DNA from: Onthophagus taurus
Taxonomy: Eukaryota > Arthropoda > Insecta > Coleoptera > Scarabaeidae
Direction of reading: 5' to 3'
Assembly: GCF_036711975.1 (NCBI RefSeq)
Contig: NC_091968.1
Location: 22,878,001-22,942,000, forward strand
Length of the DNA: 64,000 nt
Part shown: positions 19,903-64,000 of the stretch, one piece after another
How positions within the stretch are numbered: position 1 is the stretch's first letter
Layout: the number at the start of each line of letters is the position of its first letter
Notes under the pieces: model-generated
Told to the model about the DNA's origin: nothing
The model's input: the letters and a program-made list of their open reading frames with translations, nothing else
Database searches by the model: none
Position numbers and translations under genes: made by a program

Positions 19903-19937
19903 TTAATTGTTAAAAATAAAAGTATTTTTAAATGTTT

Positions 19938-20000: not shown

Positions 20001-21115
20001 TATATGATAACTAACTTCAGGTTTAAAATGTCAACCTCAATTTTGATATATTTGTAATCTTCATTAAAAATCCTTTAAAATGAGTACAAACACGACATAT
20101 TTATCTTCAATATTAATGAAGTTATGGTCAACTTCCGGTTAAGGATATCAACGTCAATTTTGACATATTTGTAATCGTCGTGAAAAATCCTTTACAATGA
20201 GTCCAAACATGATACGTTTAATTCCAATATTACTCGAGATATAAGCAACTTCCGGTTTGAAATGTCAATGTCATTTTGACATATTCTTAATTTTTATAAA
20301 ATGTCTTAATATTTGTCGCAAAAACAAAAATATAATAAAAAAAAATCTAAAATTAAGGTTGGTATTAATATTTAAAAATTAAATTGCTATTTTTATTGTT
20401 GCTAACTTCGGGTTTAATGTATTTTATTCTAACTTTTTTGCTTTTTGAGATAAGTGCGTCTTGTTTGGAGTCATTTTAAAGATTTTCTTTAATAAAAAAT
20501 ACATCATAAAAGAACACCATGAAGTTGTCCATTTGTCTATTATATGACAACTACCTTTAGGTTTAAAATGTTAACCTCAATTTTGACATATTTGTCATTT
20601 TCATTAAAAATCCTTTAAAATGAGTACAAACACGTCATATTTATCTTCAATATTAATGAAGTTATGGTCAACTTCCGGTTAAGAATGTCAACGTCAATTT
20701 TGACATATTTGTAACCGTCGTGAAAAATCGTTTAAAATGAAGCCAAACAAGATACGTTTAATTCCAATATTACTCGAGATATAAGCAACTTCCGGTTTGA
20801 AATGTCAATGTCATTTTGACATATTCTTAATTTTTATAAAATGTCTTAATATTTGTCGCACAAACAAAAATATAATAAAAAAAATCTAAAATTAAGGTTG
20901 GTATTGATATTTAAAAATTAAATTGCTATCTTTATTGTAGCTAACTTCGGGTTTAATGTATTTTATTCAAACTTTTTTATTTTTTGAGATAAGTACGTCA
21001 TCTTTGGACTCATTTTAAAGGTTTTTTAATAAAGATGACAAATATGTCAAAATTGACGTTGACGTTTCAAACCGGGAGTGATTGTATCTCCAGTAACATC
21101 AAAGTTAAATATGTA
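20001..21115. repeat. Tandem-repeat element, family 1 copy d (inverse orientation)
   Basis: Begins tatatgataactaacttcag, the reverse complement of the right-hand end of the other copies. It contains two units with acttcgggtttaatgtatttt and repeated aaaatgagt/actcattttaaa. No TIR seen. Confidence 0.65.
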
Positions 21116-27629: not shown

Positions 27630-28276
27630 TTAATAATAACTATTACTTCTAGATATTTCGGTTTTAACATCATCAATTAAATATATTTTTTGCCCCGTTG
27701 ATGATTCTTCCGATAATTTTTCCATATTCATCGCTGTTATTGGATTGTTTAAATCCAATCCTAAAGAATAAAAATCCCCACTTGGAAGTGGTATACTAAC
27801 CACAAATAAATTATTAGCATTTGGTCCATTTTTACTACGTTTTTCTAACTCTTTTAATTTAAATATAACATCCTTATTACTCGTATCAATCGAATATGAA
27901 TGACGCCTTCCGTATTTATCTGTAAAGCTAAAATGGAACATTGTTTTAACAGCAACAACTTTATCTGAATTCGGGTATCTCCCCGTCGATTTAACGGTGG
28001 CGTCAATAAGAACGTCTAAAGTTCTTGGATCCCAAGTATTGAATGATAATGGAATTTCCATGCCTTGTTCTAAAACGAGATTAGCTATAGATATCGCGGG
28101 ACTTGTTGTGTCTAAACTTTCGGTGCTTTCTTCACTGAAAGCTTTTAACATTATCATAAGTTCTTGGTTGTTGGTGTCGATTGTTATGTTGTATTTCACT
28201 TCATCGGCTCCTTTATATTCGAATGAAGAGTAAAATGGATTATAGGTGTTTTCTGGACGAGGATTATCCTCGGGAA
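27630..28276 (-). CDS. Giant gene, last exon (647 nt)
   Basis: Acceptor AACTTTGTAG. Continues ...[20 protein letters not shown] and holds about four copies of the repeat module ([60 protein letters not shown]). Ends SRSNSYY stop. A minus-strand AATAAA lies just past the stop (27623-27628), so the 3' UTR must overlap that of carbonic anhydrase exon B. Confidence 0.8.
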
Positions 28277-31200
28277 CTACAAAGTTAAAAATAATTAAGT
28301 GAATTTAATAATTATTTTTTTTTTACTTTGTGGTACAACTGAACGATATTCAAAAGTTGGCCCAGTAACCATTTCTACTGGAGGATGTTGTAGTTGTGCT
28401 GAAAAAACTTTGTTATTAATTTTAATCGATTTTTCAGTTGGTCATTTTGATTTAAACGTCAAAATCATTTTCTTGGTTAAAATATAAATTAATTTTTAAG
28501 TTTTTTTATAAATAAAATTAATTAATTTTTATTTTTTATTAAGTTTTTATATTTAATTATTTTTTAATTTATTATTTATATAGTATTTTTAAATCCTAAT
28601 AAAAAAAATAATTTTTAAGTTGGCAATTCTGACATTTGACATTTATATAAACATCACAATAATTCTTAATTTCTTTTATATTTACTTATTTTTTTAGTGT
28701 TTTAGGATTTCCACAAGAATTCTTACGAGAACCTTACCAAAGCGAACATAAGCAATTAACTAAAAGTATTCGAATAGTGGGGTTAGGAACGAGATACTTA
28801 ACAAAACTTGAGGGTTATAACGAAAGAAAATTATAAAAAAAGAACCTAATTATAAAAGATTATCATTTCCCAAATAGCATTCTTGCTAACCGATGTGAAA
28901 ACAGCACGCTAAACATAGCACGCCATTTCAGCGAGGTCACTCGGTATAATAATACAGTGAAGTCGGTTTCACACGCTCTAATTTGTAAGCAACAAAACTA
29001 CAGAAAATTCGGCGGTTATACTGATTTCAATCAATTTGAAACATAGCAATAAATACAATTGAAAAATAAATTGCCTTGTTCCGATTTCGTAAAGGCTGTG
29101 TTACATTCATATTAAAAACCGATAATAAAACCGATATAAATCTACCGATTTATCGATATAGAAGATAGTCTACCAATATACCACTTAATCTACCGATTTT
29201 CAAAATTTTAACAAAGTATTATGAAACACGTACTTAAAATCAATACAATTGCGACAAAAATTGTACCTTATGGGAATACCCTACTTATATTGCATAAAAG
29301 TATATACCAACGATATGGCAATGTCGCTTGAGCAACGTTGCCAAATCGTTGGTATATATAGTACGCGCCATAAGTAATTTGAAAACGGTTCAAAATATAA
29401 TATTGTCAAAATAGATATTGACGCATTTAAGAGTAAAAGTGCAAGAGAGTAATATTGTTAACAATAAAATTTGCTACAACTTTTATTGTAAACGTTTTTT
29501 TGTAACACCCTGCGATTCCCGAGTATTACCTTTAATAACTTAAAAAAGCTACAGATTCATCAAATTTCCATATTTTCGTATTTATCACGATATTGACGCA
29601 TCTAAGAGCAAAAGCGCAAGAGAGCAATAATGTTAACAATAAAATTTGCTACAACTTTTGTTCTAAAAGTTCTTTTGTAACATGCTTCGATTCCTAAGCG
29701 TTATTTTTAATAACTTGAAAACGCAATAAATTCATCAAATTTTCATATTTTCGTATCTATCTCAATATTGACGCATCTAAGAGCAAAAGTGTAAGAGAGC
29801 AATATTGTTATGAATAAAATTTGCTACAACTTTTGTTCTAAAAGTTCTTTTGTAGCATGCTTCGATTCCTAAGCGTTACCTTTAATAACTTGAAAAAGCA
29901 ACAAATTCATCAAATTTTCATATTTTCGCATCTATCTCAATATTGACGCATCTAAGAGCAAAAGTGCAATAGAGCAATATTGTTAAGAATAAAATTTGCT
30001 AAAACTTTTATTCTAAAAGTTTTTTTGTAACATGCTTCGATTCCTAAGCGTTACCTTTAATTACTTGAAAAAGCAATAAATTCATCAAAATTTCATATTT
30101 TTCTCAATATTGACGCATCTAATAGCAAAAGCGCAAGACAGCAATATTGTTAACAATAAAATTTGCCACAACTTTTGTGCTAAAAGTTCTTTTGTAATAT
30201 GCTTCGATTCCTAAGCGTTACCTTTAATAACTTGAAAAAGCAATAAATTCATCAAATTTTCATATTTTCGTATCTATCTCAATATTGACGTATCTAAAAG
30301 CAATAATGCAAGAGAGCAATATTGTTAAGAATAAAATTTGCTACAACTTCTGTTCTAAAAGTGCTTTTGGAACATGCTTCGATTCCTAAGCGTTACCTTT
30401 AATAACTTGAAAAAGCAACAAATTCATCAAATTTTCATATTTTCGCATCTATCTCAATATTGACGCATCTAAGAGCAAAAGTGCAATAGAGCAATATTGT
30501 TAAGAATAAAATTTGCTACAACTTTTATTCTAAAAGTTTTTTTGTAACATGCTTCGATTCCTAAGCGTTACCTTTAATTACTTGAAAAAGCAATAAATTC
30601 ATCAAATTTTCATATTTTTCTCAATATTGACGCATCTAATAGCAAAAGCGCAAGACAGCAATATTGTTAACAATAAAATTTGCCACAACTTTTGTGCTAA
30701 AAGTTCTTTTGTAATATGCTTCGATTCCTAAGCGTTACCTTTAATAACTTGAAAAAGCAATAAATTCATCAAATTTTCATATTTTCGTATCTATCTCAAT
30801 ATTGACGTATCTAAAAGCAATAATGCAAGAGAGCAATATTGTTAAGAATAAAATTTGCTACAACTTTTGTTCTAAAAGTTCTTTTGTAGCATGCTTCGAT
30901 TCCTAAGCGTTACCTTTAATAACTTGAAAAAGCAACAAATTCATCAAATTTTCATATTTTCGCATCTATCTCAATATTGACGCATCTAAGAGCAAAAGTG
31001 CAATAGAGCAATATTGTTAAGAATAAAATTTGCTACAACTTTTATTCTAAAAGTTTTTTTGTAACATGCTTCGATTCCTAAGCGTTACCTTTAATAACTT
31101 GAAAAAGCAATAAATTCATCAAATTTTCATATTTTCGTATCTATCTCAATATTGACGTATCTTAGATCAAAAGTGCAAGAGAGCAATATTGTTATGAACA

Positions 31201-34200: not shown

Positions 34201-37200
34201 AAATGGGACCACCAGCATTTTTAAATTCTGATGAAGAAACACTACTGGTTGAATGGTTGTTTCATTCAGCAGTCCTGTTACAAAAACCCAGTTGAAAAAC
34301 ATAAAATTTGGGTGAAAAGTTAAGTCAACAACATTTTACTCCATTTAAAGAGTCAAAAAATATAAACATTTTTTTGTGAACAAAATAGTATGGAAAAATA
34401 ATGAAAATGAATATTATATTAAGAATCGGTCAAACATTTACGGTTTTAAGGTCAAAGACTAGATATTATTGGCCAAATAATGTAATCAAAGTGGTCAAAC
34501 ACTAAATGCGAAATACAGTTATTCATTTTAATTTTAAAAAAATATTACTTTATGATGTTATATTTTATATGTAGGGTAAGTAACTTTAAATGAATCAGAT
34601 GTGTATTTGATCATATTTTGATCATTTTATGTAAAGGCAGAGGGATCTACAAGAAAAATAATATGACTCGGTCAAACACTGACATTAAAATATCCTTAAC
34701 AGGTCAAACACTGGTGCGTTTACCCTATTTTGATTTTTCTTTTTATTATTGCAGATTTTTTTTTTTTTATTGTTCTAATTGTTTCTAGTGGATACTTAAT
34801 TGGGGTTTTCCCTGTATGTATCCCGAATATAAATAAATAAATATTAAAAAGTACTAGCTGTTCAATAGCATGGTCTGACTTCGTAACGGCTCTTTTATTC
34901 ACCCCTACATTAATAAAATTCACCTGTGTAATTCCCAAAAATCTGATAGTACGATGTTCGACGGCGATAGTGCTATTTTTTTTATATAGGGTGAATAAAA
35001 GAGCACTTACGAAGTTAGAGCAAGTTAATTTGACCACGTTAATGAACGCTTTTTAATATATTTAGCAATTATTAGATTTTTGACGGCTGCCATAGTTAAC
35101 AAGAGACGAGGTTTTTTATGACGGTAAAAAATCCTTTACATAATCGGAGGAAAATTTATTTATCGCTATTTTTCAATTGATTGACCTTTGGAATCAATAT
35201 TTACGTCGAATTTTCTGTAGCTTTGTTGCTTACAAATTAGAACGTGTAAAACCGACTTTACTGTATACCGGGTGATCTCGCTAATATGGGTTTCACGCCA
35301 TTTCTTGGTATTACACCGATTTTAGGTTTATTTTAAAATTGTATACTTACGTTTATCATATGTCTCATATTCATGACTTTGTGTTCTCTCATCTTGTTGG
35401 ATAAAATAATCCCCATCTCGTTCATCTAAAATAAAGATTAATATAAAAAAAAATAAATTAATTTATTAACACCCAATACCTTTGTTATCATAACTTTCAT
35501 AATCAAGATCGTTTTCATTAGCATCTTCTTCATGCAAATCATCATCGTATTCATCCCCATTCAAATCATCATCATATTCTTTCTCATTAACCTCCACACT
35601 TTCCAAATACTTATCGCCATCACCACCATCCGGTTTTCTTATATCCATTTTCGTTTTAGATTTCCACGGACTCGGAGCAACGTTAAGACTTTGCGCATCA
35701 TAGAGATAATCTTCATTAATACCTGGTTTTTGATTTTGAGAAATTTGATCAGATGAAAGTTGATTGTATTCGGGGTAGTTTTTCGTTGGAGAGTAATCGT
35801 CATTTTCGTTGAATGTTTTATCGTAATCTTCGGTAGGGATTGGATCGAGATATTGTTCTTTGTATTCTGGGTCGATTTCGTTGTTATCTTCTTGATTAAT
35901 CAATTCATCTGGTTTTGTTACAGCTTTTGATAATATGTTTGAGTGAGATTGATGGGATTCTGGAGAACCAGATAATGTTTGTTGTTGATTTTGATCATTA
36001 TTGTAGTCGTTATTTTCTTGTGGGTAATCATTTTTATTATTTTCATTTATTGTATTCACATAATTCATTTCAGGATCACTTAAATCTTCAGGATTAATAT
36101 TTTCATCACCTGGATTATTATTATTATGATAATCATCAGATATACTCGTATTATCATCTGGATAATTACTTTGAAGATCAATTGACTCATCAGGATTAAT
36201 ATTTTCAGCATCAGGGTAATTATTTAGACCTTGTGGATAATCATCTTTAATATTATTTAGATAATCATAATCAGATTCTTCAGTCATAGATATTGAATTC
36301 ATGTTATCATCTGGGTAATTAATTTGAGGATCAATTTGGTCATCCACATTAATATTTTCATTATCTGGGTAATTATTAAGATCTTGTGGATAAGCATGTT
36401 CATTATTATTAAGATAATCATCATCAAATTCATCACCATTATTTATTATACTCGTATTATCATCTGGATAATTACTTTGAGGATCAATTGACTCATCAGA
36501 ATCAATATTTCCTCCATCAGAATAATTATTTAGATCTTGTGGATAACCATCTTCATTATTATTAAGATAATCATCATCAGATTCATCACCATTATTTATT
36601 ATACCATTTGGATAGTTAATTTGAGGATTAATTGGATCCTCAGGATTAATATTTTCATCATCAGCATCAATATTTCCTCCATCAGAATAATTATTTAGAT
36701 CTTGTGGATAACCATCTTCATTATTATTAAGATAATCATCATCAGATTCATCACCATTATTTATTATACCATTTGGATAATTAATTTGAGAATTAATTGG
36801 ATCCTCAGGATTAATATTCTCATCATCAGAATCAATATTTCCTCCATCAGAATAATTATTTAGATCTTGTGGATAACCATCTTCATTATTATTAAGATAA
36901 TCATCATCAGATTCATCACCATTACTTATGACACCAACATTATCATCTGGATAATTAATTTGAGGATTAATTGGATCCTCAGGATTAATATTTTCATCAT
37001 CAGCATCAATATTTCCTCCATCAGAATAATTATTTAGATCTTGTGGATAACCGTCTTCATTATTATTAAGATAATCATCATCAGATTCATCACCATTATT
37101 TATGACACCAACATTATCATCTGGATAATCAATTTGAGGATTCATTGGATCTTCAGGATTAATATTTTCATCATCTGCATCAATATTTCCTCCATCAGAA

Positions 37201-40200
37201 TAATTATTTAGATCTTGTGGATAACCATTTTCATTATTATTAAGATAATCATCATCAGATTCATCACCATTATTTATTATACCATTTGGATAATTAATTT
37301 CAGGATCAATTGATTCATTGGGATTGATATTTTCATCATCAGAGTAATTATTTAGATCTTGCTGATAACTATCTTCATTATTATCAAGATAATCATCAGA
37401 TTCTTCAGTCATAGTTATAGAACCCATATTATTATTTGGATTATTAATTTCTGGATAATCATATCCGGCATCAGGATAATTAATTTGAGGTTGAATTGAT
37501 TCGCCTGGATCATATTCATTACTTCCAGGTTGTTTTGGTCTTGTCAAAATTTCCGAAAGTACTTTCGATTGCGATTCTAGAGATTCTGGTACACCAATCG
37601 ATACTTTTTGTGGATCTTCATTATGATCATAAACAGCCGAAGATTTTCCATCTTCTGGATTATTATCAAGATAATCATCATCAGATTCTTCAGCCGTAGT
37701 TATAGAACCCATATTATTATTTGGATTATTAATTTCTGGATCAATTGGATACTCTAGATAATCATATTCGGCATCAGGATAATCAATTTGAGGTTGAATT
37801 GATTCACCTGGATCATATTCATTACTTCCGGGTTGTTTCGGTCTTGTCAAAATTTCCGAAAGTACTTTGGATTGTGATTCTAGAGATTCTGGTACCCCAA
37901 TCGATACTTTTTGTGGATTTTCATTATAATCATAAACAGCCGAAGATTTCCCATCTTCTGGATTATTATCAAGATAATCATCATCAGATTCTTCAGTCAT
38001 AGTTATAGAACTCATATTATTATTTGGATTATTAATTTCTGGATAATCATATCCGGCATAATCACCACCAGATTCATCAATTTGAGGTTGAATTGATTCG
38101 CCTGGAGATTTTTCTAGATCTTTATTTTGATTTCCCAAATATTCGTTATCGCCATACTCTTGACTGTACTCCTCTTCGCTATAATATTGACCTTGGTACA
38201 AATTAAAATTATTTTCTTCTTGGTCGTAATAATAATAACTAGGGACGAATACTTTATGGCCATGTTCGGGTTCGATTACTTTAAATTCTTGCGACGACGG
38301 ATCAATTTTATGTAATTGGCCGTATTCGTCGTATTGATAATAAATCGTTTCGTAATGATAATTATAGTTGTATTGAATATCTTCTTTGTAGGTGTATTCC
38401 AAAGAAATTTTTTTGTAATCTTCATCTTCATCAAAAAATTCCCCATCCTCATCGTCAATCTCATAAACGTAGGTGTTATATTCTTGATAGTGCTCTTCGA
38501 GATGGTGCTCATCTATTGACTGGTAATACTCGGTTTCGTACGGAATACTTTCAGTGATTACTAAAACAAAATTGAATCAAAACTGGTGATGGAACGGACA
38601 GTGATTTTGGGAAAAGCCGAATATTAGCCGGTTATCCGGCCATTATGGTTATAATTTCTGGTACATTTCTGCAACATTGTTACGATATTTGAATAAAAAT
38701 GAAATTAATAAGAAAGGTGATAAGATATGTCAACTTATTTGGATCCAAGATACAAAATGAACTTTTTTAATGCTGACGAAGTAACTTTAAAATTAATTTT
38801 ATAGCGAATTTTGAAAATTATCGACAAAAATTGGAACATCGAAAATTTTATCAAAATTTCAAATATTGCTTTCTCAAAAACTAAAAGTTATTTTTCAAAA
38901 CGGGTTGGTTCATTGGAAAAAGCACACTTTTATTAGCATTTAAGGAAATTTTCATACTCATATTCCAAGAAATCGATTTTTTACCAATTACTAAAACTTA
39001 ATCGGCGAAAATTGCGAAATTCAAAAAAATTGTCGATTATTTCAAAAATTTATTTCTCAAGAACTAAAAGTGATTTTTCAAAACGCCTTTTTGCATTAAA
39101 AAGAGGGTACCTTAATTAATAATTGGTGATATTTCCACAAGGATCCTTCAAGGAATTAATTTTATAGCGAATTTTGAAAGTTATCGATGAAAATTGCAAC
39201 ATCGAAAATTTTATCAAAACTTCAAATATTGTTTTCTCAAAAACTAAAAGTTATTTTTCAAAACGTGTTGGTTCATTGGAAAGAGTACACCTTTATTAAT
39301 ATTTTGGGAAATTTTCATACTCATATTCCAAGAAATCGATTTTATACGAATTCTTAAAACTTAATCGGCGAAAATTGCAAAATTCGAAAAAATTGTCGAT
39401 CTTTTAAAAAATTATTTCTCAAGAACTGAAAGTGATTTTTCAAAACGGCTTTTTGCATTAAAAAGAGGATACTTTAATTAATAATTGGTGATATTTCCAC
39501 AAGGATCCTTCAAGAAATTAATTTTATAGCAAATTTTGAAAATTATCGACGAAAATTGCAACATCGTAAATTTTACCAAAACTTCAAATATTGTTTTCTC
39601 AAAAACTAAAAATTATTTTTCAAAACGGGTTGGTTCATTGGAAAGAGGACACTCTTATTAACACTTTGGGAAAGTTTCATACTCATATTCCAAGAACTGG
39701 ATTTTATAAGAATTTTTAAACTTAATCGGCGAGAATTGCAAAATTCGACAAAATTGTCGATTATTTCAAAAATTTATTTCTCAAAAACTGAAAGTGATTT
39801 TTCAAAACGCCTTTTTGCATCAAAAAGAGGATATTTTAATTAATAATTGGTGATATTTCCACAAGGATCCTTCAAGAAATTAATTTTATAGCGAATTTTG
39901 AAAATTATCGAGGAAAATTGCAACAGCGAAATTTTATCAAAACTTCAAATATTGTTTTCTCAAAAACTAAAAATTATTTTTCAAAACGGGTTGGTTCATT
40001 GGAAAGAGGACAGTCTTATTAACACTTTGAGAAATTTTCAAACTCATATTCCAAGAAATGGATTTTATACGAATTTTTAAAACTTAATCGGCGAGAATTG
40101 CAAAATTCGAAAAAATTGTCGATTATTTCAAAAATGTATTTCTCAAAAACTAAAAGCGATTTTTCAAAACGGCTTTTTGCATTAAAAAGATGATACTTTA

Positions 40201-52200: not shown

Positions 52201-55200
52201 TTGCTTATATCTCGAGTAATATTGGAATTAAACGTATCTTGTTTGGATTCATTTTAAAGAATTTTTCACAACGATTACAAATATGTCAAAATTGACGTTG
52301 ACATTTTTAACCGGAAGTTAACCATAACTTTATTAATATTGAAGATAAATATGTCGTGTTTGTACTCATTTTAAAGGATTTTTAATGAACATTACAAATA
52401 TGTCAAAATTGAGGTTGACATTTTAAACCTGAAGTTAGTTATCATATAATAGAAGTTTTATAACTGAAGTAATCTAGTGTTAGTCACTTTTCTTTTTATT
52501 TTTAACGTATTACTACGTATTTTACTTGTAACATTTCGTTCTTAATTCCATTTTACAACTATTTAAACTTAAATTTTGTAAATTAGTAACTAATAACTGT
52601 CTATTCTGAGAAGTCTTATATTTTTAGAGAGGTGAAAACGAAAATTCCGTTTTTCTCAACATTATTAATTTGTCTAAATAACAATAAAAATAATACTTAC
52701 ATAATATTCAAGATGTCCATTTGGTGGTCGGATTGAAATTCTGCTAGGATAAACATTTCGAATCGATAAAGTTATAAGTTGATGAACGATTCTTTGATTT
52801 GCCGGTTGATATTTAAATAAGAAAACGGTTTTAGTTCTTGTATCCAAAACATTCGCTTGGGCCACCATCGTATTAGTTTGTGTTTCCTTCGATATCTTAA
52901 TTAATCCATCCAAAACGATGTGATCCATAAAATCTAATTGCAACTTAAGTAAATGGAACTCAACGTCCATAACGGTTAAATATAAATAATCGGGTATCTG
53001 CATTAACGGCGTTTGTTGCACGGGGCAATTTTCGGAAATTGTTTCTAAATAATTTAAAACTTTTCGATTTGTTAAAACAATATCGAGGTTTTCGATGATA
53101 ATTTCAACGGGATTTAAAATATTCGTTTCGATTACTTCGTCCAATAAATTTCTGAGATCTCCCATAAATTCCTCATCATTACTGTTAATAATGATGGGTT
53201 GGAAAGGATTATTTTGAGTTGGAATCGTTAAAATCGTAACTGGTTTATTCCCCAAAGTGCTTGAAATCTTGATAGGTTTAAACGGCTTGCTCGTGTATTC
53301 TTGAAGACTTCTCAATTTCTCAACGGTTGAATCATTTTGCAAATTAATCCGGATTTCAATTGGGTAACCATCAAAGTGGTGTAAATTAAAGAATGAATAA
53401 GGCGGTGGGATTTTTTCTTTCGATAATGTTATTAGGGTGTCATAAACGATTTTTACACTTCGATCTAAAACGATTATTTCCGTTAAATCTTCGTAGGTTT
53501 TTACCATAAATGCTATGATTGATTTATGATCTAATTGTGTCGCAACAATTTTCGATCCGGGATTCGCTTTATCTTCTAAATCAAATCTGATAACAACGGT
53601 TACTTTTAATTCATCCGGAATGTAAAGTAAGACCCCTAATTTTATTTTAGGCGTTTTCTTACTGCGTTCTAATAAATTATTAAAAACTTCGGGTTGGGAC
53701 ACGTCGAAGATATAAGTGTCGGTTCTCCCATTATCCGATTCTATTGGTAAAGTTAAAGTTGTTAATAACCCGGCGTTTAAAACCGGGAAGTTTTTCATTG
53801 CATCTCGAGGAAGTTGAATTGTACTCGATAATTTGTTTAAAGCTTTCGTTACTTCCGATTGGCTTATATCTAAGATAAAAATTTCTTTTTCTCGACGAAC
53901 GTTGATGAATTTAATTTCTAAAGGAAACGTCGCTGAAGTGTTGTGAAGCTTATTTAAGGTGTTTATAACTTCGTTATTACCCATGTCTAAAATAATTTGC
54001 AAATTATCTTTGTATGGGTCTAAAATTGTGAATGAAATAAACGGAACGTTCCCAAACGGATTTGGAACCTCCACCGGTCTAATAAAACTCGGCGTTTTTA
54101 ATTTCAACTTTTTAACCGTTAATAATTGTTCTTCATCTTTCATGTTGAGTTTAATTAATTTAACGAAATCGCGTTTATTAATCGTGAAGAGATGCGTCGA
54201 TTCTTGCAGTTTAGTTTTCGCGGAAATCTCCAAAAGCTCATCGACGACTTCTTTATTCATCAAATCTAAAATAACGATTTCGCGAATTCCCACTTTCTCA
54301 TCGGTTAATTGCATATGAATTAACGATCCGGGATCTGGGATGTATTCGACGCGAAACGCGATGTCTTTTAATCGATTCAATGATTTCTCATCATTGGTGG
54401 ATAAATAAATTTCTTTTAATTCGCCCGAAGAATTTTTTAATATTATTTTAACCCTCGAGTGAAACACGTCGGATTTCGCCGCCTCCTCGAACAGCGTTTC
54501 AACGACTTCCGGTTCGTTTAAATTGAAATGCAACATCACGGTGTGTCCGAGGATATCGACGAAACAAATTATTAATTGATCTTCGTCTTTATCGATAGGG
54601 TCGAACCAAGTGTTGCTGATATTTTCGTCGGGTGTTTCGTTTAATTCGATCATATTTCTATCTTGCTCTATTTCTTCGGGGTTTTTTGTGTATTTATCGT
54701 CTTGGTAATTTTTTGGTTTGCTCGGTTCGATTTGTGGGGAAGGATTTTTGGGTAATTCTTTCGCTGTGATTACAGCAATCGTTTCGATTATTCTTATATC
54801 GGTTAAATCGAGGTGAACCACAACGAATTTCCCATCGACGATGAAATCGACGAGAATCGCATCAGGATTTTCTGGGTCATCTAATCGTTGTAGCGTTTCA
54901 ATTACGTTATTATCAGAAATGTCTAAAATTAATTGGCCGTATAATCCATCTTCAATTTCAATTGTAAGTATTAATAGGTTATTTTTTTGTATCGGGGGAG
55001 ACATGTAAATCAAAAATCCTGATTGGAGCTCCTTAATGATGGTTTGCATTGCTAAGGGGTCGTTTAAATTGAATTTAAATCCGCCGTTGATTTCGTCATC
55101 TCCGATTAAATGCATTAAATGTACTTTTGATTTTATATCGATGATTTGGTGTAATCGATTAATTAATCCAATAACTGGGCCGTGATTCGGGTCCAACGCG

Positions 55201-58200
55201 ATCAATTTTGATTCCCCCTCAGGTTTTATTTGGATTATAATCAAAGAATTCGGATCCGGCTGGATTAAAAGAGCCCCGCAAATTTGTTTCAACCTCTTTA
55301 TAGTAACACTAAATTGCAAATCATAATAAATCGTAATTGGTTTATTCGTCAAAGGCGATAAAATATGAAAAGCAGTTCCCGGAGTCCTCCTAGTACATTT
55401 CCCCGGGATTCTCAACAACTCATTAACCACACTCCATTTAGTCACATCGCATTTAACAATTAACGTTTGAGAATTCATCTTATTAATAGGAATCAAAAGT
55501 TGTTTGGGATATTTACTCGGAATATTTGCAAGCAAAGTTTGAGGGAGTTGCGACTTCAATCCGAGTTCTTGAAGGCGATTTTTCACCAAATTATCCGAAA
55601 AATCCAAATATAACTTCTTTTTATTTCCATGACTATCGTGGAGATTAAGAAAACTACTATGATGATTCGAATATCCCGCTAATTGGATCAAAGCATCCAC
55701 GATCTTCTCGTTATTCGTGTCTAAAATAACACACCTCGATCTCCCTTGCTCATCATCCACGCTTACTATTAAATAAGGATACCCAAATTTCCCACTAGGG
55801 ATTTCTAAAACCTCCAAATTCGTTGGTGTAAAAACATTTAATTGTTCCACAATATTCAAAGTTCTTAAATCGTCCATATCGATTTTTTTAACTCGTTTAA
55901 CTCCGTTTTTATCAGGAATTGTAACCGTTACAACCCCACAATTTTCCGATTTCACATCCGGCAATTTCAACAACTCCTCCCTAACCCCCGGATTATTCAT
56001 GTTAATAATATGAGGGGGATAAATTAAAACCCCATAACCCGAATTAACATCCCCAACGATTATTTCCGAGTTTATGGCGGTCGTTAAAACCGTATGGACC
56101 ACCTGATCGTTGTCACCATCGATGCTAACGATGTAATTTTCGTAAGCTGGGCCGTTAAAAATGGCTTTCGGCGCGGTTTTAGGAGCTGAATAAGTAATTT
56201 CTTTTAAAACTTTAACAGTTTCGGGTCTTAATGTATCTAAAGTTACCCTATACAAAGTATTTTCGGAATCTTTTAAATTCAAAGTGACTAAATTCCCGAG
56301 ATTCGTAGCTGGTACTCTTGATGAAGGTATTTTTTTGGTTAATTGAATCAATTCTCTTTTCGTTTTGGGATCGTCCTTCTTTAAAAATACAATCGTGTTT
56401 TCGCCGGTTCTACTATTCAAAATAATCTTTATTGCGTCTAAATTATTAGGGTCGTTTAATGATAGAATTGTATTTCTACTTTGTGGGTCTTCTTGATCGA
56501 TACAAACCGTTGTTTTTGTTAATTCTTCTTTTTTTTGTGTAAGCTCATCGTTATTTTGTGTTGTAATACTTCTTTTTGTAATCTTTAAACTTTTTATGTT
56601 TACCTTTTTTAAATCACCTGAGTCTAAACCGCGTTTAACTCTTTTTACTAATTTTCTTTTTAAAATGGCACGTTTTCTTCTTGGCTTAATTTGAAGATTT
56701 TCACTCGAAATTTGACGTTTTCTTCTTGCTGGAACTGTTGTGGGTGAAATTGTAGTTTCCCCAGGATTTGTAACTTCATCTTTAGATGTTGCAGATTCCG
56801 TTGCTGAATCATCACTTCTTACACTTTCATTTTCAACTTCTTTAATGGTTGTTAATCCTTCAGTTGTTGTAGTAGTTTCTTCTGCACTTCTTTCTTCGCC
56901 AGATGAGTCTTCTTCATTTTCTGGGCTTGATTCATCATCACCACGTTCTTCATTTCCATTTTCTTTGTTATTTTCTTCTTCTCCAGATGATTCATTATCA
57001 TTTCTTTCTTCTCCAGATCCTTCATTATCATTTCTTTCTTCTCCAGATCCTTCATTATCATTTCTTTCTTCCCCACTTTCTTTGTTTTCGCCATTTTGTT
57101 CTGTTTCATCCTCAATACTTTTTTCTTCTCCAGATCCTTTATTATCATTTCTCTCTTCCCCACTTTCTTTGTTCTCTCCATTTTGTTCTGTTTCATCCTC
57201 AATACTTTTTTCTTCACCAGATCCTTCATCATCACCTCTTTCTTCTTCCACAGATTCATCACCCTCAGCTGTTCTTTCTTCTCCCGATTCTTCATCTTGA
57301 ACATTTCTTTCCATATGACCACTTTGATCTTCTTCATTTACGTTTCCTTCTTCTTCACCTGATTCTCCATCTCCATCAGTTTCTTCAACATCAACATTTT
57401 GTTCTTCTCCAGATTCTATGTCATTAGAAATTTGGTCTTCTCCTGATTGTTCGTCGTCTTCTTTATTTTCTTCATCTATAATAAAAATAAATTAATATAA
57501 GTATGATAAAAGCTATTAGATCATGAATTCCATTTTCTAACTCAATATTCCTTACATATAATTACATTGAATATAAGCAAATCAAGTAGAACATATGTAA
57601 AGGTCCAGCCTATTGAAAGGGTCAGAGAATATAAGTATCTGGGTACAATTGTGAATGAAGATTAGAATCGAGCAGGCAAGGAGTATATACGTAGAAATGA
57701 AGAGGCTTTTATGTTGCCAGGATTTAAACCTTGGATGGGGGCTTGGACTCTGAGAGGGATCGATGTAACGAGACTGGAGACATTTAAGATGTGGATATAT
57801 CGGAGGATGCTAACAATCTCATGGACGCAGAAGAGACCAACGTAGAAGTGATGAGACGGATGAGATAGGAGATTAATTGACACAATAAAAGAGAAGATAT
57901 AATTCAGGCAAAAATAACCAGCTATTTAGATCTGCGGTCTCAAAAGTGAGAATCACCTTAATAATAGCTAAGCTTCAAATAGCTTTTTTTGGGTACCTTT
58001 GAAGTTATGTGTGAGACGCACAATATTCTCTTTTGCTCGTATTCTATAGATCTTATGCCAGATTGCCTTTTGTGTTGAGCGTGTGATTCATCACGTTGAA
58101 GTGACCAAGCTAGCATTGATGTTTACCACTTCTCCTACATTCTTCTTTTACATTCTGTTGGAAGAAACAGCTCTTTGCTAACATCTCCTAAATTGTCAGC

Positions 58201-61200
58201 AACCCAATATAAATGAGAGTGCAACTTCACGCTTATGTTACAACCTGATTTTTTGAAGATTTTTAGCATCACATCGACTAACACCTTATAATTACCAACT
58301 CTACTATTGCCTAAGAAACCATCGGCAATTTCTTTGAAGGCGTCTCTTTCATCATATTTTCAAAATCAGCAGTTTTCATCAATAGTCGAATCGTCTTCGT
58401 TTATTTTGACATCACACTCATGTTGGGATATTTATTTGCAAGGTACTTAAAATAAGCACCATTTTTATTAAAGGTCTTTATGAACTGCTTCATTATTCCT
58501 AATTTGATATTAATTGGGGGTAATAAAACCCGACTGTTGTCCAAGAATCATGCCAGTAATTTTCAAATCTTCATATATTCTATTTCTTGTGCTGCTTATA
58601 TTTAATAGTTTCCAGATTATAATAGTCTACATTTCTGCACGAAGGCACTGACATCATTAGAATAAACATAGCTATCACCTTCAGAGAAGAACTCAATAAA
58701 TGAGTTCTCTCGATGTCTATGCTAAGAGAAGGTAGTTCCAGGAGCAATGATTCTGGAACTCCTAGACCAAATCATTTAGTGCAGTCTGATCATACAGATT
58801 AGAGTCTTCATAATCAAGTGAATTGATGTCTTCATTTTTCTTCTTCAAATATGGTGGAATTGAAGGAATATCGTCAGATTCAATGAAAAAATGACAAGGT
58901 TTCTTAACACTTACTGCACTTGGATACTTAATATTATGAGAATTTTTAGTATTAAAACCGCCAGTTTTAGTTAAACAAAAATAGCAGTTATCGTGACTGA
59001 AAGGTTCTCGTAGTACCGTTCAATAGCGCATTTTCAAGGGCAAGGATGTAAGAGATAGACTTGAACAATAAAATATTGTGCGTCAGGTACATAACTTCAA
59101 TATTAACCAAAAAAGCAGAATCCACGAATTCTTCAAATTTTCATATAATTGTGTTTTTCTCGATATTGATGCATCTGAGAGCAAAAGTGCAAGTTGCTCT
59201 CTTATAGTTTTTATTGTTAGGAAAAAAATTTGTTACAACTTTTGTTCTAAAAGTTTTTTATAACAAGCTCTCTTTGTCAAGTGTTACCATTAACAACTTG
59301 AAACAGCAACAAATTTATCAAATTTTCATATTTTTCTAGGTATTGACGCATCTGAGAGCAAAAATGCAAGAGAGCAATATTGTTACGTATAAAATTTGCT
59401 GCAACTTTTGTTCTAAAAGTTTTTTTATAACAAGCTTTGTTTCTCAGATGTTACCATTGACAACATGAAAAAGCACAAATTCATCAAATTTTCATATTTT
59501 CGTATTTTTCTCGATATTGACGCATTTCAGAGCAAAAGTGCAATAGAGCGATATTGTTAGATATAAAATTTGTTACAACTTTTGTTCTAAAAGTTTTTTT
59601 ATAACAAGCTCTCTTTCTCAAGTGTTACCATTAACAACTTAAAAAAGCAACAAATTCATCCAATTTTCATATTTTCGTATTTTTCTAGATATTGACGCAT
59701 CTGAGTGCAAAAGTGCAACAGAGCAATATTGTTAGGTATAAAATTTGCAATAACTATTGTTTCAAAAGTTTCTTTGTAATATGCTCCGTTTTCCACGTGT
59801 TACCATTAACAATTAGAAAATGCAATAAATTCATCAAATTTTCATATTTTCGTATTTTTCTCCATATTTATGCATTTGAAAGCAAAAATGCAAGAGGGCA
59901 ATATTGCTAAGAACAAAATTAGCTACAACATTCGTTCCACAAGTTTTTTTGCAATATGCTTTGTTTCCAGAGTTTCACCATTAACTTGTGAAACTACGAA
60001 TTCTTTAAATTTTCTGATTTTCGCATTTTTCTTAACATTCATACACCTAATCGTAAGAGCTAAAGTAAAAGAGAGCATGATTGATGACCTCGGATTATAA
60101 TAATTCTACGAAAAAAATTACTTCAGAAATGACTTTAACCGACAACAAAACTTTGCAGATCTATGTTATGATAATGACGAACAATATAATAAAAAATTAC
60201 CTGATTCTTCATCATCAACGAAATGTTCAACACCAAGTTCTTCGATATCATCATTTCCTGATTCAGCATCATCATCATTTCGTTGCTCACCAGATTCTTC
60301 GTATTCGAGATTTATTTCATCACCAGATTCTTCTTCACCACTTTGTTCTTCCTCTAATTCTTCTTCTTCACCACTTTGTTCTTCATCATTTTCTTCTTCC
60401 CCAGATTCTTCTTCATCAATTTGTTGTCCCCCAGATTCCTCATCTTCATCATAATTTTCTTCATCACCAGATTCTTCCTCATTATTATATGATTCATCTC
60501 CAGATTCTTCTTCATCGTTATATGATTCATCACCAGATTCTTCTTCATCGTTATATGATTCTTTTTCATCGTTATATGATTCATCTCCAGATTCTTCGTC
60601 TTCATCTTCAATTTGTTTCATTTTTCTTTTATAATGATGATCATTTCCTAATTGATGAATACCATGTAGGCCATTTCCGTGGTGTAAATCGTGCTCGAAA
60701 TCATCTTCTTCGTAATAATCATCTTCTTGGTGTTCATCTTCATAGTCTTCTTCGTAATGATATTCTGATTCATGAATACCATGTAAGAAATTATTATGGT
60801 ACTCTTCATGTTCATAACTTTCTTCTTCATAATCATCTTCTTCATAATCATCTTCGAATTCATGAGTACCATGTAAATAATTATTATGATTTAAATCGTG
60901 TTCATAACTTTCTTCATCTTCATAATAATCATCTTCATAATAATCATCATCATAATAATCACCTTCATAGTAATCACCTTCATAATAATCATAATCTTGA
61001 TAAGTTGTTTCATAATGATAACTTTTATTATAAATCGTATTTTCTTCAAAATAATAACTTTCCCCTTCATAATAATCACTTCCTTCATAATAATCATCTT
61101 CATAATTCGTTTTTTCACTTTTTGTATAAACATGAGAGTACTTTTTTTCTTCATTATAAGCATATTCACCACCATATTCTATATATAAAGTTTCAGGTTC

Positions 61201-64000
61201 GTTTGCATTTTTAGTATTTTCACGATTTTCAGTTATACCCTCTTTATTTTTTTCAAGATCATAATCATAATTTTTATTATAATCTTCATAATCACCATTT
61301 TCTTCATAATCATCATCCTCATTTGGTACATTATAATCATCAGAATCACCATAATCATAATAATTATCATTATAATCACCACTTTCTTCAAAATCTTCAT
61401 TTTTATCATCATAATATGATTCAATATAATCACCACTTTCCTCAAAATCCTCATTTTGATTAATATAATTATTATATGATTCATTTGGTACATTATAATC
61501 ACCACTTTCCTCAAAATCTTCATTTTTATTAACATAATCATAATATGATTCGTTTGGTACATTATAATCATCAATATGCTCAAAATAATAAACATAATGA
61601 GTTGTTGACTCGGTTGGAATCGAAGTGGTAAAAAGTTCACCATCCGTATTAAACTGAAAAGATTGAGTGGCAACCTCTTCATTGTTTTTTTCATAAACTT
61701 TGGGTGTTGTAAAAAATTTAAGATGTTCCTCCGGATCGACGGTGCTAACAATAAAATAATTATCATCGAATTCTTTTTTTTGATCATCTTGATAGTTATA
61801 CTCGTAATTATATTGATCGAAATCGAAATAATCCTCGATTTCTTTCTTGTTATAATCCTCGTTAATTAAATAATAATCGTATTCTTTTGTTGATTCTAAA
61901 AAGCTGGGTGTTGTAAAAGAATTCCATAAATCATCGGGATGAATCGTTGGTTTTTTTTCGTTAATAATTTCTTTTGGGGGTTCCGGGATGTTAATAAAAT
62001 CATCGGGGGATGTCATGATGTAAAAACAAATTAAAGGTAACCCTCCTTTCGGGTTAATTAATTTAGTTGGGGCTAAATCCGAGCTAGTTTTATCAACCAT
62101 TTCGATTAAACTCGGAGCATAATCATCTTCGATATAACCATTATAATAATCATAATCCATCAAAAAAGTTTTCGCCTCCCGATTTAAATCGCTGTAATAA
62201 ATCGCGTTTTTCGTCGCGGAATCTTCTCGCACATTCATCGTAATTTTCTCCATATTTTTCATCATATCCTTCGGCCCTATATGGATTAAATGGTGTTTTA
62301 ATTGCCCGATTTCGTCGGTTAAAACGACGAGAAATACGGTTCCCGGATCGGGGAGTATTTCGATTTTTGACGAGACATCTTTTAATGCTTGAATTACGTG
62401 GGGGTTATCTAATTTGCAATAAATTTCGTCGCGTTCTCTATCAGGGCGGGTTATAAAAATCGTCGCTGAATTTTTATGAGTTCCTTGACAAATATTTACG
62501 ATTTTATCGAAAACTTTTTGATCCGTACCTCGGATATATAATAACTTTTTAGTTTCATCTTCGTAAATTGGGATGGTACTTAAAGATTGTACCCCATAAA
62601 ATGATCTGAAAGAGTCGATTGGGGTGATTTTATTAAAATCGGTTATTATGACTTTATCGGGGTTAAGATCGGGTTCGGGGAGTTTCGTTAAAATTTTTGC
62701 AACCTTTGGGTTAAAAATGTTGATTTTTAGGGGTTCCCCGGATTTAAAAGGGATTGTAACTGCGTTGGTGTTGTTGGGTTCGTTAAGATGTTTTATTTTT
62801 TTATAAATGCTGGGTTTGTCGTCGAATAGAATCGGTTGCATCGGGTTTTTTGGGTCACCCCGATTCGGGATTATCATCGCAATTATCGTTTTGTTATCGG
62901 GGGTTGTTAATGAAGTGGGCGAAATCGGTTGTAAAAAGGGTTTTGAAGCTTCCGCCCATAAAAGTCGCTTAGTTAATGGGTCGTTAAAGTTGATAAAGAG
63001 GGGTTGAGCCGGCTCAATCGGCACGTTTATTATTGAGTATGGCCCCTTTAAGTTGGGATTTTCCCCGATTTTTTTTAGCTCGTTCGAAACTTCTTTGATT
63101 TCGGGTAATAAGATGGTGAAGAATTTTGAGCCGGGGGATTTTGGGGCTACGATTATGTAAGATACGTTTTTGTAATCGTTGTATTCTTCGACTTTTATTT
63201 TATCTTGGGCGATGTGCTTGATTAATTGGGGGTCCATGTCGTCGAAGTTTAAATAGAGGTAAATGTATTTACCCCTTTGATTTTTAACATAAACCGTGGC
63301 TCGGTTATCGGTGATGTTTCGGTTCTTCTCCCACGCGTTCGACATCCTTTTTATTAATTGGAGCGCGATTTGGTCGCGCAAATCGAATTCTAAAACGGTG
63401 ATTTTCCCCGTGACTAAGTTTTCGCAATAAAAAACATGCCGGGTTTCGTTAACATAGGGATCAATTAATGGATAAGTTCTTTTAATCCCCATTAATGATT
63501 TAATATTACCCTCCGAGCTTACAGTGAATGATATTTTTAAAAAACCCCCGGGTTTCGTCGCAACAGGGGTTGGCTTATTTAAGCACTCTTTCGTGCTAAA
63601 CTCATTGAGGACTTTCCAAATTAAAAATGATTTTTCCCCAAAAATAACTGAATACCAAGGTGCCCCAACAACACTAGGGAATGGTAACACATAAATATAA
63701 TCTTTAGGGGACACCACATCAATCGAAGCTTTTAATATCTCAAAAACATCCTCATAAGCGTTTAAATCAATATAAAGTTTATAACTTTTTTTATTAATAT
63801 CTCTAAACTCCACTAAAGGTTTTTCTGGGTGCTCAATCGAGCGCTTTGATAAATCCCGCAAAATAATCCAAGTGTCCTCTTTGTTAAAATCGAACTTTAA
63901 AGCTTCCATCCTTTGGAATTTCGTAGGAATAAAAATAATTAACGTCGTTACGTAAGATACATCGACGATTCTTTTATTTGTGTCGTAATTTTTGATGATA
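27630..64000 (-). CDS. Giant secreted modular protein gene, at least seven exons, 5' end beyond window
   Basis: Exons on the minus strand: >64000-60201, 57475-52701, 47958-43902, 38560-35480, 35425-35351, 28398-28327 and 28276-27630. Every junction has GT...AG and phases match (1,0,1,1,1,1), giving about 5,500 codons with no stop until TAA at 27630-27632. Content alternates blocks of a roughly 45-residue module (core hxhxLDxxNxxVhxxLxxL), acidic Tyr/Asn-rich tracts, acidic Ser-Gly tracts and polybasic furin-type sites (RRKR, RRVKR). No transmembrane segment or known domain is recognised. The Ser-Gly tracts and furin sites imply passage through the secretory pathway; the signal peptide would be upstream of the window. 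Likely a structural, extracellular proteoglycan-like protein; this role is inference. Some small exons could have been missed, though phases do not require any. Confidence 0.78.
28327..28398 (-). CDS. Giant gene, 72-nt exon
   Basis: Acceptor TTTTTTCAG, donor GTAAAA, keeps phase 1 on both sides. Encodes [20 protein letters not shown] then VVPQ, joining to IPEDNP of the last exon. Supported by splice sites and phase only. Confidence 0.6.
28399..28929. other. Gene-free intron stretch
   Basis: Very AT-rich (long runs of ttaattttt). No coding or structured element recognised before the inverted-repeat arm at about 28930. Confidence 0.5.
29303..29356. repeat. Hairpin, 19-bp arms
   Basis: tataccaacgatatggcaa and its inverse (ttgccaaatcgttggtata) with one mismatch and a 16-nt loop. 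It lies just before the satellite array. Confidence 0.55.
29400..32470. repeat. Satellite array, about 17 units of about 175 bp
   Basis: Each unit contains ttgacgcatctaagagcaaaag, caatattgttaa, aatttgctacaac, gattcctaagcgttacc and aattcatcaaattttcatat. Three-unit blocks repeat as a higher-order unit: nearly identical stretches begin at 29943, 30470 and 30977. The last units (from about 31760) are more diverged. A second array of the same monomer is at 59090-60070. No coding. Confidence 0.85.
32770..33300 (+). mobile_element. Non-LTR reverse transcriptase fragment (jockey/CR1-like)
   Basis: [20 protein letters not shown] then [16 protein letters not shown] is the RT motif around the catalytic region, with the YADD site damaged. 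Downstream [15 protein letters not shown] and [19 protein letters not shown] match the later part of such ORFs. A likely 3' UTR and tail (ttggggttttccctgtatg, tcccgaatataaataaataa) resumes at about 34728-34840, after the TIR element inserted at 33343. Confidence 0.6.
33343..34727. mobile_element. 1,385-bp TIR element rich in the motif GGTCAAACACTGAC
   Basis: Ends TAGGGTAAAACGCCAGTAAT and the inverse of the right end (tagggtaaacgcaccagtgt). The motif ggtcaaacactgac or its inverse (gtcagtgtttgacc) occurs with variants at 33372, 33770, 33925, 34110, 34427, 34448, 34490, 34671 and 34700. No protein similarity recognised. The ends do not match a superfamily I can name. Confidence 0.6.
34862..35032. 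mobile_element. MITE with arms of about 35 bp (ggctcttttattcaccc)
   Basis: tgacttcgtaacggctctttt...ttcaccc at the left pairs with gggtgaataaaagagcactt acgaagtta at the right. No coding. Confidence 0.55.
35351..35425 (-). CDS. Giant gene, 75-nt exon
   Basis: Acceptor TTATTTTAG, donor GTAAGT, phase 1 on both sides. Encodes [20 protein letters not shown] then ETYDK. Short acidic/Gln segment following the acidic exon upstream across a 54-nt intron. Confidence 0.65.
35480..38560 (-). CDS. Giant gene, Asn/Asp/Tyr-rich repeat exon (3,081 nt)
   Basis: Acceptor GTTTTAG, donor GTATTG, 1,027 codons, no stop. The start is Tyr/Glu-rich ([14 protein letters not shown]). A repeat of about 85 residues follows, with [20 protein letters not shown] twice. 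Then at least six copies of a 58-residue unit ([47 protein letters not shown]). The exon holds none of the LDxxN modules and only isolated Ser-Gly. Composition suggests an extended, highly acidic, probably calcium-binding or swelling polymer segment. Confidence 0.8.
36390..37320 (-). repeat. Coding tandem repeat, 174-bp unit, in the giant gene
   Basis: DNA-level repeat of the 58-residue unit, six good copies with some shortened by in-frame loss of the D-D-N-V-G-V part. Indels are multiples of three, so the frame is maintained. Confidence 0.8.
38770..40400. repeat. Tandem repeat, unit about 362 bp, first block (about 4.5 units)
   Basis: Marker ccacaaggatccttcaag recurs at 39135, 39498, 39860 and about 40222. 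Units also contain ttttcaaaacgggttggttcattgg and cttaatcggcgaaaattgc. The same array resumes at 42000. Confidence 0.85.
40606..41963 (+). mobile_element. Degenerate Tc1/mariner-like transposon splitting the 362-bp array
   Basis: TIRs CAGTGTGTCCGTAAAGTAAC and its inverse, TA on both sides (40604-40605, 41964-41965). Interior remnants include [12 protein letters not shown] (41571-41606), the transposase motif around the second catalytic Asp, with stops throughout. Non-functional. Confidence 0.75.
42000..43830. repeat. Tandem repeat, unit about 362 bp, second block (about 5 units)
   Basis: Marker ccacaaggatcctt at about 42173, 42537, 42899, 43263 and 43627 (last as ccacaagtatcctt). The end lies about 70 bp from the splice donor of the exon at 43902. 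Confidence 0.85.
43902..47958 (-). CDS. Giant gene, 4,057-nt exon with module blocks, Tyr-rich, acidic and Ser-Gly tracts
   Basis: Acceptor TTCCTCAG, donor GTAAAG. Order on the protein: about five LDxxN modules ([40 protein letters not shown]); an Asp/Tyr tract; six copies of QYPYYQQYN; a long D/E/Y tract ([13 protein letters not shown]); an acidic Ser-Gly tract with units like [20 protein letters not shown]; a polybasic site ([11 protein letters not shown]); then about four more modules ([38 protein letters not shown]). The frame is open throughout. It repeats the architecture formed jointly by the two upstream exons. Confidence 0.85.
46585..46770 (-). repeat. Coding repeat QYPYYQQYN, six copies
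   Basis: 27-bp DNA unit (attgttgataataaggatatt type on the plus strand) encoding a Tyr/Gln/Pro/Asn-only run. No charged residues for about 60 residues inside an otherwise very acidic protein. Confidence 0.85.
47959..48359. other. Gene-free intron stretch
   Basis: AT-rich, no features recognised. Confidence 0.5.
48360..48910 (+). mobile_element. Non-LTR reverse transcriptase fragment
   Basis: [20 protein letters not shown] then [18 protein letters not shown] is an RT segment. After a deletion, VLMRR..., [20 protein letters not shown] and MVYLGV follow from the later RT region. Internally deleted and frameshifted. Confidence 0.55.
48928..50290 (+). mobile_element. RTE-like non-LTR retrotransposon, degenerate
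   Basis: Fragments in order: [20 protein letters not shown] and [24 protein letters not shown] endonuclease end; [12 protein letters not shown] site near 49605; [17 protein letters not shown] (49672); the C-terminal block [20 protein letters not shown] then QARAHLGL (50160-50275). Numerous stops and shifts. Confidence 0.55.
50300..51070 (+). mobile_element. R1-like non-LTR retrotransposon 3' fragment
   Basis: [18 protein letters not shown] and [19 protein letters not shown] (50545-50655) precede a clean C-terminal frame at 50714-51070 with a zinc motif [18 protein letters not shown] further [14 protein letters not shown] motif upstream (50370) belongs to a second fragment. Stops in the first part; the last frame is intact but lacks RT. 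Confidence 0.55.
51394..52675. repeat. Tandem-repeat element, family 1 copy e, beside an exon of the giant gene
   Basis: The left end gtgacttgactaagcg and gattttcatgctatctggtagg match the 16441 copy. The interior has the usual accggaagt and tttaaaatgagtccaaac motifs in both orientations. The right end (cgttttctcaacattattaatttgtct) stops about 25 bp before the splice donor at 52700. Confidence 0.65.
52701..57475 (-). CDS. Giant gene, 4,775-nt exon: Ser-Gly acidic tract, furin sites, about 27 repeat modules
   Basis: Acceptor TTATTATAG, donor GTAAGT. Begins inside an acidic Ser-Gly tract ([18 protein letters not shown] repeated), then a Thr-rich stretch, then a cluster of basic sites ([29 protein letters not shown]). 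About 1,300 residues of modules follow at roughly 45-residue spacing, for example [60 protein letters not shown] and [20 protein letters not shown]. Only occasional Cys. A single exon holds almost the whole module array, so module number does not follow exon number. Confidence 0.88.
57548..57900 (+). mobile_element. RTE-like non-LTR fragment
   Basis: Reads [20 protein letters not shown], then [19 protein letters not shown] and [10 protein letters not shown], the conserved region after the RT catalytic site in RTE-type elements. Short, with stops. Confidence 0.6.
58040..58790 (-). pseudogene. Degenerate ORF of a repeated insect gene family (LPPINIKLG motif)
   Basis: Minus strand pieces: [20 protein letters not shown] (58550-58490), then [33 protein letters not shown] and [24 protein letters not shown] blocks down to 58150, in shifting frames. 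The pattern recalls a widespread uncharacterised mobile-element-associated protein in invertebrates. Not functional. Confidence 0.4.
59090..60070. repeat. Second array of the 175-bp satellite, about 5-6 diverged units
   Basis: Same marker words as 29400-32470 (ttgacgcatctgagagcaaaa, caatattgtta, aatttgctgcaac, aattcatcaaattttcatat). Divergence between units is higher than in the large array and no higher-order pattern is seen. Confidence 0.8.
60201..64000 (-). CDS. Giant gene, upstream exon (3,800 nt in window, continues past the edge)
   Basis: The frame is open from the window edge ([20 protein letters not shown]) to donor GTAATT at 60200; the Met at 63909 is internal. About 12 modules come first ([40 protein letters not shown]). 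A Tyr/Asp/Glu tract follows with repeated [17 protein letters not shown], then three copies of an Asn/His motif ([27 protein letters not shown]). The exon ends in an acidic Ser-Gly tract ([11 protein letters not shown] repeated) that runs on in frame into the next exon. Confidence 0.85.

Follow-up and report, generated by a model that had tools for sequence, protein, structure and literature searches.

A ten-exon gene of the beetle Onthophagus taurus predicted to encode a 7,639-residue, probably secreted repeat protein with acidic Ser-Gly blocks

Introduction

Large lipid transfer proteins, mucins and giants of the dumpy and titin type are giant or secreted and are repetitive in build, and the protein described here is like them in these respects. 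A giant modular secreted protein is a known kind of molecule; the modules of the present one, and the family to which it belongs, are absent from the libraries that we searched.

A second point of comparison is provided by the invertebrate chondroitin proteoglycan cores, among them the C. elegans CPG set and Drosophila Windpipe. The portions of PMC8418075 on which we draw state that the xylosylated Ser typically precedes Gly and has acidic residues nearby, give E/D-G/A-S-G as the nematode motif, and caution that motifs alone are insufficient to identify proteoglycans; they also describe information on invertebrate proteoglycans as scarce. With the cores described there, the giant protein shares Ser-Gly sites set beside acidic residues and a probable secretion. 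It differs from them in its size, in having two unmatched repeat types, and in that the strict nematode motif fits only 3 of its 60 Ser-Gly sites.

Onthophagus taurus is described as a model of horn development in the part of PMC10942260 consulted. We analyzed a 64,000-nucleotide stretch of its genome (the window; C3:22878001-22942000 in an assembly of 290.8 Mb and 33 contigs), which contains the larger part of a gene for a 7,639-aa, probably secreted protein. Coordinates beyond 64000 extend the window numbering past its end.

Gene structure

The gene lies on the minus strand and comprises 10 exons over ~55 kb, with 22,920 nt of coding sequence including the stop codon, or 7,639 codons. The product has a calculated mass of 886 kDa and a pI of 4.3. 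Each of the nine introns begins with GT and ends with AG; their phases are 0,0,1,1,0,1,1,1,1, and the spliced frame has no internal stop. From 5' to 3' the introns measure 60, 8377, 3787, 2725, 4742, 5341, 54, 6952 and 50 bp. A TATATAA lies upstream of exon 1, at 82819. In the list that follows, "paralog" and P0002 denote the homologs from O. taurus and Trypoxylus that are described in the next section.

Exon 1, 82581-82637, minus strand: signal-peptide-like start, reads MANFGIILLAIITIITASE; upstream of the window.
Exon 2, 81777-82520, minus strand: GT-AG splice sites, matching phase; upstream of the window.
Exon 3, 70567-73399, minus strand: GT-AG splice sites, matching phase; upstream of the window.
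Exon 4, 60201-66779 (6,579 nt; in the window 60201..64000), minus strand: acceptor 66779, donor 60201, phase 1/1; 2,234-aa frame, open as far as 66870; the in-window part covers the remainder of beta region 1 together with the bulk of acidic block 2.
Exon 5, 52701..57475 (4,775 nt), minus strand: 1,605-aa frame, phases match, aligned in order with both the paralog and P0002; contains the tail of acidic block 2 and multibasic sites, along with the greater part of beta region 2.
Exon 6, 43902..47958 (4,057 nt), minus strand: 1,366-aa frame; beta region 2 finishes here and is followed by acidic block 3, a multibasic cluster and beta region 3.
Exon 7, 35480..38560 (3,081 nt), minus strand: phase 1-1, 1,036-aa stop-to-stop frame; most of acidic block 4, in-frame tandem repeats.
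Exon 8, 35351..35425 (75 nt), minus strand: phase 1-1; placed by GT-AG and phase only.
Exon 9, 28327..28398 (72 nt), minus strand: phase 1-1; placed by GT-AG and phase only.
Exon 10, 27630..28276 (647 nt), minus strand: encodes beta region 4 and ends in the TAA stop, closely followed by an AATAAA hexamer (start 27628).

A sequence-only reading of the window had proposed seven minus-strand exons joined by consensus splicing, and each junction it named (60201/57475, 52701/47958, 43902/38560, 35351/28398 and 28327/28276) is indeed GT-AG with matching phase, as is a 54-bp intron that it had not listed (35480/35425). Its figure of at least 5,500 codons agrees with the 5,502 codons (16,507 nt) that we counted inside the window. 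The 36-kb extent it gave holds for that part and underestimates the gene, whose true span is 55 kb in 10 exons, with exon 4 reaching 66779. It was also right that single exons are large; their sizes, which it put at 3.8-4.8 kb, are 3.1-4.8 kb for the four in-window stretches.

The minus-strand stop-to-stop frames within the window are 1,036, 1,366, 1,605 and 1,277+ aa long. These lengths are far above chance, since 60 first-order Markov versions of the window yielded no frame longer than 225 aa.

Homologs and collinearity

We searched the genome for further O. taurus paralogs with exon 5 as the only query and recovered exon 5 itself, exon 4 of the same gene, and one other locus, at C7:26802067-26805411. 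There, C7:26794090-26809308 on the plus strand is a coding frame that runs uninterrupted for 15.2 kb, unusually long for an exon; its 5,073 aa exactly match the C-terminal end of the 6,105-aa P0001, "uncharacterized protein [Onthophagus taurus]". Six collinear phmmer blocks connect the giant protein with this frame from aa 135 to 7621. Given as giant protein/paralog frame, they are 135-1005/28-897, 1181-2040/1000-1841, 2116-2789/1954-2609, 3750-5201/2660-4106, 6124-6316/4143-4338 and 7482-7621/4395-4531. Their E values run from 1.4e-98 to 1.1e-4 in a one-sequence database, and two of the eight blocks returned were set aside, one as an acidic-composition match at E 1 and the other as a repeat cross-match. 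Identity in the best BLASTP block is 28%.

The second homolog is the 5,631-aa P0002, "hypothetical protein Trydic_g2295 [Trypoxylus dichotomus]", which aligns in seven collinear blocks from aa 52 to 7625; these are 7 of 13 phmmer rows, the other 6 being taken as repeat cross-matches. Exon 10 is part of this series, with aa 7430-7625 matching P0002 4919-5103 (E 2.7e-18). The first 2,000 residues of P0002 are also matched by P0003 (2,003 aa; 47%) and P0004 (2,024 aa; 38%), and the family therefore has further members. The names under which the paralog and the Trypoxylus protein are filed fit the earlier description of the gene as undescribed, and no description was evident in the open-licence literature, among the matches listed. 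We also considered the Tribolium flipflop orphan genes (PMC5649079) and rejected them, as they are short and unrelated.

P0001 has helical and then beta repeats in the same order as the giant protein over its full length. It likewise has a signal-peptide-like start followed by an acidic block bearing Ser-Gly, and a multibasic cluster (aa 2144-2150) between helical halves with an acidic stretch preceding it. It differs in that its final 5,073 aa are encoded in one unbroken frame, whereas the giant gene has ten exons, and in that its C-terminus runs past the last matched block. P0002 shares the collinear core, the four-cysteine signature and the beta units, and differs by extra helical repeats between its beta regions. 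The giant protein has the features that mark the family of P0001 and P0002, a collinear core of helical and beta repeats together with the four-cysteine signature.

Two exon junctions lie within aligned sequence. Junction 2/3 is inside a segment that aligns to P0001 (E 1e-13) and P0002 (1.1e-6), and junction 5/6 is inside a segment that aligns to P0001 (E 1.2e-7); searched alone against P0002, the latter segment gave no significant match, while two longer alignments do span the junction. The remaining junctions are in or beside acidic sequence, or join exon 1 at the signal-peptide-like start, and there the evidence consists of order and phase.

End-to-end collinearity of the spliced protein with two homologs would not be expected of separate neighbouring genes, and we therefore favor a single giant gene, as the sequence-only reading had proposed, with a probability of about 0.93. 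That several adjacent genes happen to have compatible splice sites is very unlikely. Six of the introns are long (2.7-8.4 kb), those in the window contain tandem repeats, and exons 7-9 are without a homologous counterpart, all of which would suit such an arrangement; against it stand the end-to-end collinearity with both P0002 and the paralog, 5,073 aa of which share one frame, and the presence of a single signal-peptide-like start and a single stop. A decayed or neutral frame without a product is more improbable still. Divergence is fast, as the low identity to the paralog indicates, but 22.9 kb stay open across ten exons, homologs exist in Trypoxylus and as P0003 and P0004, and the cysteine spacing is conserved.

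A less remote alternative, which we nevertheless regard as unlikely, keeps one gene and makes exons 7-9, which carry acidic block 4, an optional cassette or no part of it at all, so that exon 6 joins exon 10 directly. These three exons have no homologous counterpart and are placed by splice phase and composition; because each is phase 1-1, they can be skipped with the frame kept. In P0002, 11 residues separate the matches that flank them (aa 6143-6306 and 7430-7625), and in the paralog the corresponding blocks are separated by 56. On the other side, exon 7 stays open for 1,027 codons and its tandem repeats are in frame, and the repeats inside exons have a period divisible by 3 in 54 of 55 rows, compared with 15 of 25 outside exons (80 rows set against the exon coordinates; the rows overlap and hence are not independent).

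Folded repeats

The N-terminal part of the giant protein is built of a helical repeat of ~185-225 aa with four cysteines. Its signature, C-x(5-8)-C-x(22-45)-C-x4-C-x-W/H, occurs 5 times in the giant protein, 5 times in P0001, 6 times in P0002, 5 times in P0003 and 4 times in P0004. Neighbouring C-x4-C-x-W/H elements are 197-201 aa apart in the giant protein, and 185-225 aa apart in P0002 where copies adjoin. After the helical repeats comes a beta repeat of ~40-50 aa, arranged strand-strand-helix, whose core resembles L-x-L-D-L-N-D-P-x-V-x-x-L-x-x-L. We trained a profile on the two O. taurus proteins; applied to these same sequences, it found 24 units in the giant protein and 22 in the paralog frame (domain E < 0.05). 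Spacings between units often alternate between ~39 and ~50. The beta regions that reach into the window are as follows.

Beta region 1, 62044..64000 (in-window part), minus strand, aa ~2060-2790: profile matches mostly weak; collinear with paralog frame 1954-2609.
Beta region 2, 47317..56621, minus strand, aa ~3690-5210: profile matches; paralog block at E 7.6e-69; intron 52700-47959 lies inside.
Beta region 3, 43927..44619, minus strand, aa ~6110-6340: profile, paralog and P0002 matches.
Beta region 4, 27675..28262, minus strand, aa ~7430-7625: profile, paralog and P0002 matches.

Two AlphaFold models were examined. The first, of residues encoded in the window, had a mean pLDDT of 72.2 from 7 alignment rows (7 of 11 were kept; one overlapped the query and three were dropped by eye) and rendered the beta repeat as strand-strand-helix. 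The second, of a P0002 segment, had a mean pLDDT of 77.8 from 15 rows; it gave the same strand-strand-helix arrangement and made the other repeat helical. Ten-residue pLDDT blocks in the P0002 model were 78-96 in the helical part and 54-84 in the beta part (residues 201-370), which is the less certain. The helical fold of the four-cysteine repeat in the giant protein is a prediction carried over from this P0002 segment.

The sequence-only reading recognized no known domain, and library searches bear this out. No family reached the curated cut-off in a Pfam scan that covered the reading frames of exons 2-7 and of exon 10, or in an NCBIfam scan of six frames. In the same Pfam frames, the vitellogenin N-terminal and VWD domains of lipid transfer proteins and the Ig, EGF, ZP and spectrin repeats of titin, dumpy and spectrin giants were all absent at E up to 1. 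A mucin-type Pro/Thr/Ser-rich domain was not found in the giant protein: Ser+Thr+Pro peaks at 0.37 per 100-aa window (step 10), at aa 6001, and Ser+Thr at 0.22 in consecutive full 200-aa windows. Neither repeat type had a significant match in the PDB, by sequence or by fold. Two repeat types with no Pfam family or clear PDB counterpart deserve domain definition.

Acidic blocks and Ser-Gly sites

Four acidic blocks (aa 1155-1400, 2800-3654, 5215-6087 and 6345-7424) account for 3,054 of the 7,639 residues. Blocks 2 and 3 lie as follows.

Acidic block 2, 56727..62016, minus strand, aa 2800-3654: 37% D/E, 27 Ser-Gly; runs across intron 60200-57476.
Acidic block 3, 44686..47304, minus strand, aa 5215-6087: 38% D/E, 22 Ser-Gly.

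Ser-Gly is concentrated in the acidic blocks, which hold 52 of the 60 sites, and 49 of the 60 are flanked by four or more acidic residues within 6 positions. The motif [DE]SG[DE] occurs 15 times in block 2 and 8 times in block 3, where 500 shuffles gave means of 0.6 and 0.4 and at most 3 and 4, respectively; it is absent from the 4,509 residues taken as folded. Block 1 has 1 Ser-Gly and 1 [DE]SG[DE], and block 4 has 2 and 0; because these two blocks are nearly free of Ser-Gly, two of the four are not proteoglycan-like. Blocks 2 and 3 have the same layout, in which a tyrosine-rich part is followed by a Glu-Ser-Gly-rich part, a Thr/Ser-rich part and, at the end, a multibasic cluster. Tyrosines with at least 3 acidic residues within 5 positions number 221 of 462, and 195 of these are in acidic blocks.

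The homologs differ in their acidic content. Windows of 200 aa with at least 25% D+E make up 113 of 372 in the giant protein, 45 of 296 in P0001 and 0 of 272 in P0002. All seven [DE]SG[DE] of P0001 lie within its first 960 residues, and none occurs in the 5,631 aa of P0002. In the paralog frame the only acidic stretches are near 891-1110, the position of block 1, and 3241-3390, so that blocks 2-4 are particular to the giant gene among the proteins compared. Since the Trypoxylus protein is without any acidic block, the blocks were probably added to a folded core, the alternative being loss in Trypoxylus.

Secretion and candidate cleavage sites

The N-terminus, MANFGIILLAIITIITASE, is hydrophobic and, judged by eye, signal-peptide-like. 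The giant protein has 12 matches to R-x-K/R-R, of which 10 are grouped into three intermodular clusters (aa 1066-1154, 3655-3686 and 6088-6097). The other two are at aa 451, inside the helical part, and at aa 5210, alone at a border. The two clusters encoded in the window come from the motif scan and are putative cleavage sites.

Multibasic cluster, 56631..56726, minus strand: R-x-K/R-R at aa 3655, 3670 and 3683.
Multibasic cluster, 44656..44685, minus strand: R-x-K/R-R starting at aa 6088, 6091 and 6094.

P0002 has four R-x-K/R-R matches, which by eye lie inside repeats. Because these are so placed and P0002 is without [DE]SG[DE], there is no need to regard either sugar chains or convertase cuts as ancestral.

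Proposed function

From its sequence features, we consider the giant protein likely to be an extracellular matrix protein. It would enter the secretory pathway, where furin-type convertases could cut at the multibasic clusters to yield one small piece and four large ones, with predicted unmodified masses of about 123, 296, 279 and 177 kDa. The pieces may serve as extracellular matrix or lumen-filling components, in which the folded repeats would form stiff rods spaced by charged, perhaps sugar-bearing segments. The acidic Ser-Gly blocks may carry glycosaminoglycan chains, which would make the protein a proteoglycan. We rate as about even the chance that the protein is a proteoglycan and is also cut by convertases.

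The protein could instead be a giant secreted structural protein that bears no sugar chains, whose acidic tyrosine-rich blocks would bind calcium, be sulfated on tyrosine or form dityrosine cross-links, in cuticle, egg or a secretion for example. The many acid-flanked tyrosines and the near absence of Ser-Gly from blocks 1 and 4 are consistent with this reading, but the strong enrichment of acid-flanked Ser-Gly in blocks 2 and 3 is not what it would lead one to expect; we hold it to be doubtful, though a serious contender. Should the Ser-Gly blocks carry chains, as the proteoglycan reading has it, a very large core protein would join the few known insect proteoglycans.

A broader scenario, tentative and on balance improbable as a whole, is that beetles possess a family of giant secreted polyproteins with two new repeat domains, cut by convertases into several matrix proteins, and that the dung-beetle lineage gained glycosaminoglycan-carrying acidic cassettes between the modules, partly as symmetric phase-1 exons. 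The giant protein would then be among the largest invertebrate proteoglycan precursors. Comparison of Onthophagus with Trypoxylus bears on how a folded extracellular core gains or loses acidic blocks, and does so with a protein from a horn-development model beetle.

Repeats and neighbouring features

Several repeats were noted in and around the gene. Intron 6 (38561-43901) is nearly all tandem array, with a unit of ~363 bp at window 38790-43819. Arrays of a similar 175-bp unit lie in two introns of the gene, at window 29415-32471 and 59212-60032, and a 117-bp unit forms short tandem arrays in both orientations at window 8081-20825, outside the gene, and at 52164-52437, in one of its introns. 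Window 58000-58600 is an interspersed repeat with at least 64 genome matches, itself included. The telomere repeat TCAGG gave no match. Antisense to an acidic exon, a 377-aa plus-strand frame at window 60081-61214 is likely a by-product of codon composition.

Three other plus-strand features lie in the window.

2-2491, plus strand, in a frame that is open from -445: part of the polyprotein of an LTR retroelement (Pfam DUF5641, integrase zinc-binding, DUF1758).
4078-4812, plus strand: 245-aa frame, by eye like an insect odorant receptor, with no Pfam match.
26606-26965, plus strand: 3' part of a carbonic anhydrase (PF00194, E 8e-25), convergent to the giant gene, the stop codon of which lies ~0.7 kb away.
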